From assembly GCF_024498175.1 (NCBI RefSeq), contig NZ_CP101823.1, positions 930,001-994,000 on the forward strand: a stretch of 64,000 nucleotides of DNA, read 5' to 3'. A program made the position numbers and the translations under genes. The DNA is from Haloplanus salinarum (GTDB lineage Archaea > Halobacteriota > Halobacteria > Halobacteriales > Haloferacaceae). Of the stretch, positions 35,706-36,919 are shown in pieces. Numbering within the stretch: the stretch's first letter is position 1; each line of letters opens with the position of its first letter. The notes beneath the pieces were generated by a model that was not told where the DNA came from, did no database searches, and saw only the letters and a program-made list of their open reading frames with translations.

Positions 35706-35770
35706 CGGGTGACGGTATCACCGGCCGTCGCATAAGTTCGGGGGGCGGTTCCCGCCGGTTTAGGCCGGCC

Positions 35771-35797
35771 AAATATATCAGGATCGTGATAATATTT
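35771..35797. promoter_or_regulatory. AT-rich imperfect palindrome (likely operator) at the ZIP promoter
   Basis: The arms AAATATATCA and TGATAATATTT flank GGATCG; with one bulged base they are inverted repeats. The right arm includes the probable TATA box aatattta, centred about 31 bases before the ZIP ATG at 35826. The site thus overlaps the core promoter, as expected for a repressor of the DtxR/SirR or similar metal-sensing kind. The regulator identity is inference. Confidence 0.5.
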
Positions 35798-35825
35798 ATG
35801 GCCGTCGGCGACCTGTCGTCGGACG

Positions 35826-36638
35826 ATGGCACTGCTAGCGAACGTCGTATTCGTCTTCCTCGCCGGCCTAGTGACTGCCCTGGCCACCGGTCTCGGAGCG
35901 ATTCCCTTCTTCCTGGTCGAGGAGGTGAGCGACCGGTGGAACGTGGCGCTGTGGGGACTCGCCTCGGGGATCATGGTTTCGGCCTCGATGTTCGGCCTGA
36001 TCTTCGAGGGCCTGTCGGCCGCGGACTCGCCGCTCGAGATCGTCCCCGGGTTGATCGCGGGGGTCGTGCTCGTCGTCGTCGCCCACGAAGTGATCGAGAG
36101 TTACGAGGTGAGCCCCCGGCAGTACGCGGAGGCCGACTTCCGGAAGCTACTGCTCATTCTGGGGGTGCTGACCGTCCACAGTTTCCCCGAGGGTGTCGCC
36201 GTCGGCGTCTCCTTCGCCGACCTGGGGCTACGGCAGGCCGCCGGGACGACGCTCGGCCTGTTCGGCGTTGCCGTCCCGCTGCTTGCCGTGTTCATGACCG
36301 TCGCCATCTCGATCCACAACGTCCCCGAGGGTGTCGCCATCTCCATTCCCCTCCGGACGCTCGGCGTCTCGGAGTGGAAGATGGTGTGGTGGGCCGTCTT
36401 CTCCAGTCTCCCCCAGCCGATCGGCGCGGTGATCGCGTTCCTGTTCGTCCGGATCGCCCGGGAGTTCCTGCCCATGGGCTTTGGCTTCGCCGCCGGCGCG
36501 ATGATCTACCTCGTCGTCACGGAGTTCGTCCCCGAAGCGCTGGAGATCGGCGCGGACCTGCCCGGTGGCGGGCGACGCGAACTCGTCGCCGGCGTCGTCG
36601 TCGGCGTCCTCGCGATGCTGCCGCTCCTGATCGTCTAG
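35826..36638 (+). CDS. ZIP family divalent metal transporter
   Basis: This 270-residue protein has eight hydrophobic helices and the two ZIP signature motifs: VHSFPEGVAVG (117-127) and SIHNVPEGVAIS (162-173). Their His and Glu residues form the binuclear metal site. The histidine-rich cytoplasmic loop of eukaryotic ZIPs is replaced by a short polar loop. It would import Zn2+, Fe2+ or Mn2+ into the cell. It stands alone behind a palindromic AT-rich promoter and is divergent from acd. Its stop shares CTAG with the convergent small gene. Confidence 0.9.
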   Translation: MALLANVVFVFLAGLVTALATGLGAIPFFLVEEVSDRWNVALWGLASGIMVSASMFGLIFEGLSAADSPLEIVPGLIAGVVLVVVAHEVIESYEVSPRQYAEADFRKLLLILGVLTVHSFPEGVAVGVSFADLGLRQAAGTTLGLFGVAVPLLAVFMTVAISIHNVPEGVAISIPLRTLGVSEWKMVWWAVFSSLPQPIGAVIAFLFVRIAREFLPMGFGFAAGAMIYLVVTEFVPEALEIGADLPGGGRRELVAGVVVGVLAMLPLLIV

Positions 36639-36919
36639 TGGCTGTGGCCCGTCGCCTCCTCGAAGGTCATGCCGAACCGCTCCTCGAAGAGCGCCTCGGC
36701 CTTCTCGTTGATCGCTTCGAGGTCGGCGGGCACCTCGCCCTCCGCGTGGTGGACGATGGCGTGGGAGCGCTGGACGAAAGAGAGCAGCGCGATCTCGGCG
36801 ACGACGGTCGTCGGCGCCTCGCCCTGCTCGGCGAGGGTGTCGACCAGCCCTTCCGGCAGTTCGAGTTCGTCCGTGTCCCCGTCCGGCCCTTCGATTGTGT
36901 AGGTCTCGGTGTCGACCAT
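36635..36919 (-). CDS. Small conserved haloarchaeal protein of unknown function
   Basis: This 94-residue acidic soluble protein has a hydrophobic helix in TVVAEIALLSFVQRSHAIVHH, a helical ending and a C-terminal GHSH that could bind metal. I see no known motif. A TATA-like cttatacc lies about 28 bases upstream of its ATG. It overlaps the ZIP transporter gene tail to tail. The histidines and the neighbour could hint at a metal link, but this is weak. Codon use is typical of the window. Confidence 0.7.
   Translation of the reverse strand: MVDTETYTIEGPDGDTDELELPEGLVDTLAEQGEAPTTVVAEIALLSFVQRSHAIVHHAEGEVPADLEAINEKAEALFEERFGMTFEEATGHSH

Follow-up and report, generated by a model that had tools for sequence, protein, structure and literature searches.

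A DtxR-type box upstream of a Haloplanus salinarum ZIP transporter promoter shares its register with the iron-storage gene dpsA, pointing to possible induction of the transporter by iron instead of repression

The inverted repeat in front of the ZIP-family metal transporter gene of Haloplanus salinarum belongs to a larger conserved element, of which it forms the promoter-side portion and which also includes a palindromic box directly upstream of the repeat. This box, at positions 35759–35773 of the window (the whole 64,000 nt stretch of DNA analyzed here), is very probably a site for a DtxR-family regulator. Its register relative to the BRE equals that of the box at the ferritin-like gene dpsA (PF00210) and is about one helical turn off that found at iron-uptake genes, which favors an upstream DtxR-family activator over a repressor, such that iron may switch the ZIP transporter on, not off. 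On this basis, we lean modestly towards activation rather than repression of the ZIP gene, and consider it an even call whether a DtxR-family site and activation hold jointly. The features on which this reading is based are as follows:

35759–35773, plus strand: DtxR-type box TTTAGGCCGGCCAAA, a variant of TTTAGG-N4-CCTAAA, identified by genome motif search and by conservation among ZIP orthologues.
35771–35797, no strand assigned: inverted repeat with core TATCA-N6-TGATA, within which the unit RTMA-N6-TGAWAA is kept together with the box.
35777–35780, plus strand: left arm of the repeat, ATCA (the RTMA step), ten bases ahead of TGATAA, from the promoter alignment.
35787–35799, plus strand: right arm TGATAA, corresponding to the BRE, followed by the TATA-like TATTTAT, ~27–39 nt ahead of the ATG, a leaderless-type spacing.
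35826–36638, plus strand: ZIP-family metal transporter, 270 aa (PF02535, E = 9.1e-16; BbZIP, E = 5.6e-19).

The assignment of the transporter to the ZIP family is based on a Zip domain (PF02535) scoring above the curated cutoff and on likeness to the solved BbZIP. The window belongs to a 3.45 Mb haloarchaeal chromosome, and Haloplanus ruber is the nearest named relative found. ZIP proteins are known mostly as importers. Directly behind the ZIP gene, and convergent with it, lies a gene for a DUF7545 protein (window 36635–36919, minus strand), and several further Haloplanus loci have a C-terminus much like that of this protein next to their ZIP gene. We note also that, in the sections of PMC6305349 drawn on here, the Halobacterium salinarum ZIP gene OE3453R goes down with copper and up with nickel and zinc; this gene, a possible orthologue of the present one, was given no weight.

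The first-pass annotation described an AT-rich inverted repeat overlapping the ZIP promoter, and such a repeat, AAATATATCAGGATCGTGATAATATTT, is indeed present at 35771–35797, where the GC content dips from ~0.68 to 0.55 and where the right arm is the BRE, with the TATA-like stretch next to it (the BRE/TATA positions used for promoter assignment follow the parts of PMC4158304 consulted). The repeat ends 28 nt before the ZIP ATG (35826). Its ungapped exact core, TATCA-N6-TGATA, spans 35776–35791, and pairing of the outer arms (AAATAT-ATCA vs AAATATTATCA) needs a one-base bulge. The 3.45 Mb genome holds a single exact copy of the core, with 24 further places at one mismatch. Base composition would by itself yield some 0.3 exact copies per genome (a rough hand estimate), so that the repeat taken singly is weak evidence. 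The excess at one mismatch (25 vs 5 in the reversed control) was set aside because the reversed control differs in word make-up. A search for the same repeat before other metal genes, as the first-pass annotation proposed, came out negative: none of the 14 sites examined among the 24 one-mismatch places stands before an evident metal gene, with 3 of the 14 near a called start and metal-gene likeness judged by eye. Within this genome, then, the repeat does not recur as an operator, and a stand-alone operator shared by metal genes was rejected on these grounds.

Conservation in orthologous promoters, on which the earlier interpretation also depended, was observed for the repeat in combination with the box. 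The unit RTMA-N6-TGAWAA is found, at ≤1 mismatch, in 48 of the 82 ZIP promoters that bear the box (vs 43 of 4100 shuffled stretches) and in just 1 of the 51 that do not, from which it follows that the dyad and the box belong together, although common descent may explain part of this co-occurrence. Among the orthologous ZIP promoters of the genus, the common block starts upstream of 35771 and runs from TTTAGG-N4-CCAAA through TATC and TGATAA to TTA. Furthermore, a search of 293 genomes of the order with TTTAGG-N4-CCNAA-N11..15-TGATAA gave 44 matches, and the reversed control none among the matches listed. The CCRAA type accounts for 38 of these, of which 36 could be assigned to a ZIP gene (by locus for 29 and by coordinates for 7; those in genomes G307 and G282 were left unchecked), and the remaining 6 are of the CCTAA type, at non-ZIP places where looked at.

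Within the dyad, the spacing of the left arm bears on whether the repeat is simply a chance symmetry of the AT-rich BRE/TATA region, devoid of any role. This explanation would account for the right arm being the BRE/TATA itself, for the bulge needed by the outer arms, and for the single exact copy per genome, which is about the expectation from composition. However, when the promoters are aligned on TGATAA (possible for 35 of 55 representatives), T occupies position −9 in 31 of the 35, and ATC is found at one fixed spacing in 16 of the 35; twelve spacings were tried, and none of the others has it in more than one promoter. This fixed spacing is kept in distant genera and is tied to the box, and we consider chance symmetry highly improbable. 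The dyad could also be the target of a regulator of its own, a separate metal sensor (e.g., for Zn), with the box occupied by a DtxR-family protein. In line with such an arrangement, the dyad keeps its distance to the BRE unchanged when the box spacing shifts by one base, and its letters are unlike TTTAGG; yet a dyad read by a separate sensor sits poorly with its near absence from promoters lacking the box (1 of 51), with the finding that none of the 14 examined sites lies before another metal gene, and with the absence of Fur from this genome, so that we judge two regulators to be improbable.

The box itself lies mostly outside 35771–35797, and differs at two points from the TTTAGG-N4-CCTAAA palindrome (TTTAGGCCGGCCAAAT); of the two exact copies of TTTAGGN4CCAAA in the genome, one is the ZIP box at 35759–35773. 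To assess its conservation, TTTAGG-N4-CCNAA or its reverse form was searched for at ≤1 mismatch, up to 130 nt from the start codon, in 133 ZIP loci, kept from 137 oriented loci after removal of L215 (a duplicate of L140) and of L216, L217, and L219 (identity <60%), with a few genomes giving two copies. The box was found in 82 of the 133 loci, compared to 10 of 2660 shuffled sequences, and in 80 of these 82 promoters the best box starts 57–72 nt upstream of the start codon. The most conserved columns among the 55 representative promoters are TTTAGG, CC, and AAA, with a mostly perfect distal half and a degenerate promoter-side half (CCA or CCG in 50 of the 55). Two tandem boxes ~16–28 nt apart replace the single box in the ZIP promoters L129, L132, L133, L143, L149, L154, and L172, as exemplified by TTTAGGCCGGACAAA followed by CTTAGGCCAACCAAA.

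The presence of the box varies by family: it is found in 28 of 48 loci of family f1, 29 of 32 of f4, 8 of 8 of f5, 7 of 7 of f17, and 5 of 7 of f12, as well as in 3 of five single-locus families, but is rare in f7 (2 of 18) and absent from f6 (0 of 5) and f14 (0 of 3). The 51 of 133 ZIP loci with no match at ≤1 mismatch thus include whole lineages, and this distribution indicates that the box is lost, or was never gained, in these lineages.

What the full palindrome marks elsewhere is read as an iron-type regulon. Exact TTTAGG-N4-CCTAAA occurs at 10 places in the H. salinarum genome, and at 230 places across 30 of 30 genomes (H. salinarum included), compared to 5 in the reversed control. Its neighbors, with gene starts taken from a simple ORF caller, include ferric-type Peripla_BP_2 binding proteins, a solute-binding ABC operon, a SufC-like ABC gene, glycosyl transferases, a PAS kinase, a DtxR-like gene of 145 aa, and DUF5059 proteins, one of which bears a plastocyanin-like domain; the SUF, DpsA, and iron-uptake names used here are ones we presume from Pfam families and general likeness. 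The box is thus found before iron-type genes both of this genome and of its relatives, and this gene content points to iron as the metal concerned, with Zn or Mn less likely. The earlier proposal of a DtxR-like operator appears correct in the kind of regulator, as a conserved regulatory element, very probably of the DtxR family, is present here, but not in its place, which is the palindrome at 35759–35773 and not the repeat, the latter filling the stretch from this box to the TATA region.

Some other occurrences of the box stand out by neighbor or spacing. The palindrome TTTAGGTTTGCCTAAA recurs unchanged at L102 3017–3032, L103 6373–6388, and L105 6440–6455 (positions 1044017, 1174372, and 1902439 of the H. 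salinarum genome). The genes near these copies code for a PAS-histidine-kinase, where the box is at −16, and a family-2 glycosyl transferase, where it is at −47, or have no Pfam match; such neighbors are unexpected beside iron genes. In three genomes, a CCAAA-type box lies ~240–270 nt upstream of an HbpS-like gene of the haem-degrading type (L100 5863–5878, position 912862 of the H. salinarum genome, as well as L316 and L321), a spacing much larger than at other genes.

The position of the box relative to the promoter bears on the direction of control. At the ZIP gene, the distance from the box start to the BRE is 28–32 nt in 35 of the 39 promoters of the 55 that could be scored, the best box never falls at −36 to −10 (0 of 82 box promoters), and no box of ≤1 mismatch is present at −42 to −4 (0 of 82). 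At dpsA, examined in 32 loci (after removal of one duplicate, L104 = L361, and with close relatives retained), a box of ≤1 mismatch is present in 18 and none in the other 14; in 15 of the 18 it starts 70–72 nt upstream, and in 15 of the 18 it lies in a box-to-BRE register of 29–31. Many of these dpsA boxes resemble the ZIP boxes in combining a perfect distal half with a degenerate promoter-side half. The iron-uptake promoters, in contrast, have a box starting near −20, in many cases accompanied by another near −56: the nearest box start is at −30 to −11 in 32 of 49 palindrome-bearing promoter rows (a set in which certain loci overlap and some genes are on the wrong side of the box), and the upper box is 18–21 nt ahead of the BRE in 12 of 14. 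The ZIP promoters thus show the dpsA-type layout, with an upstream box in the dpsA register and none near −20.

Repression is the best-known mode of action of DtxR-family proteins, and the same palindrome is borne by the iron-uptake genes of the regulon. In an alternative scheme, metal-loaded DtxR-family dimers would cover the box together with the RTMA-N6-TGATAA dyad, excluding TFB from the BRE, with the ZIP protein an importer expressed only under metal shortage. Such a scheme would also fit a dyad that overlaps the BRE and accompanies the box. The absence of any box near −20 in all 82 box-bearing ZIP promoters, unlike at the uptake promoters, and the agreement of the ZIP register with that of dpsA, about one turn off uptake, both argue against it, and we regard repression of this kind as possible but rather doubtful. 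The repression suggested by the first-pass annotation hence finds no support in the position of the box, which, like that of dpsA, lies upstream of the BRE and not near −20, and is probably the wrong sense of control.

Activation would proceed from a composite arrangement in which the box (35759–35773) is followed by the RT(C/A)A step, which precedes the BRE by about one helical turn, and then by the BRE/TATA, the repeat taking in these last two parts. A metal-loaded DtxR-family protein, with Fe2+ as the most likely metal, would bind the box. Since the box ends ~14 nt before the BRE, an arrangement shared with dpsA, the bound regulator would aid the binding of TBP/TFB, with the dyad as the link between the box and the BRE. 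The ZIP gene would then be turned on along with iron storage under plentiful iron, and its product would serve either to export excess metal or to import a partner metal (Mn/Zn) needed at high iron.

The candidates for such a regulator are the three clear DtxR-family genes of the genome, foremost among them the one behind the SUF genes; of the other two, one carries an FeoA domain, and one encodes the 145-aa protein, which matches the N-terminal repressor domain only. Two boxes are found upstream of this last gene (L104 14550–14592; 1823050–1823091 in the H. salinarum genome), which suggests that this regulator may be under the control of its own family. A Fur/Zur operator at the ZIP promoter was considered as well and rejected, as Fur (PF01475) has no match in this genome, with the control search positive in 13 of 14 genomes.

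Several observations count against activation. The rule that links position to direction of control comes from a different regulator family, 51 of the 133 ZIP loci have no box, and 14 of the 32 dpsA loci have none either, while the dpsA box of H. salinarum itself has one mismatch and a register of 35. In addition, ZIPs are known mostly as importers, and the overlap between the dyad and the BRE would suit a repressor. We offer the wider proposal only tentatively, namely that in many haloarchaea an iron-activated ZIP gene, controlled through a DtxR box in the dpsA register, is part of the iron-surplus response, with RTMA-N6-TGATAA as a step of contact between the regulator and TFB at the BRE. 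If a positional code of this kind holds, with uptake genes marked by a box near −20 and one 18–21 nt before the BRE, and ZIP and dpsA genes by an upstream box only, 28–32 nt before the BRE, the sequence would reveal the direction of iron control, and the ZIP transporter, a protein usually deemed an importer, would join the iron-surplus side.

ZIP transporters have reportedly been predicted before, by Leyn and Rodionov in 2015, as targets of archaeal DtxR-family regulators, and are said to have been read there as uptake genes under repression; the position of the present ZIP box instead matches that of an iron-storage gene. A role of position in determining the sense of control is described for archaeal TrmB regulators, for which, in the portions of PMC4158304 and PMC10817205 considered here, a motif upstream of the BRE/TATA goes with activation and one downstream or overlapping goes with repression. 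As in the present proposal, the position of the motif relative to the BRE/TATA decides between the two; the TrmB family and its motif are unrelated to the present box, and the likeness is one of analogy only. Closer at hand, the passages of PMC6978704 and PMC11349517 used here describe a network of DtxR-family iron regulators in Halobacterium (Idr1, Idr2, SirR, and TroR) and Haloferax (Idr, SirR, and TroR), with several such regulators tied to iron homeostasis. At the level of sequence, the H. salinarum genome resembles this network in having both DtxR-family genes and a palindromic box at its iron genes.
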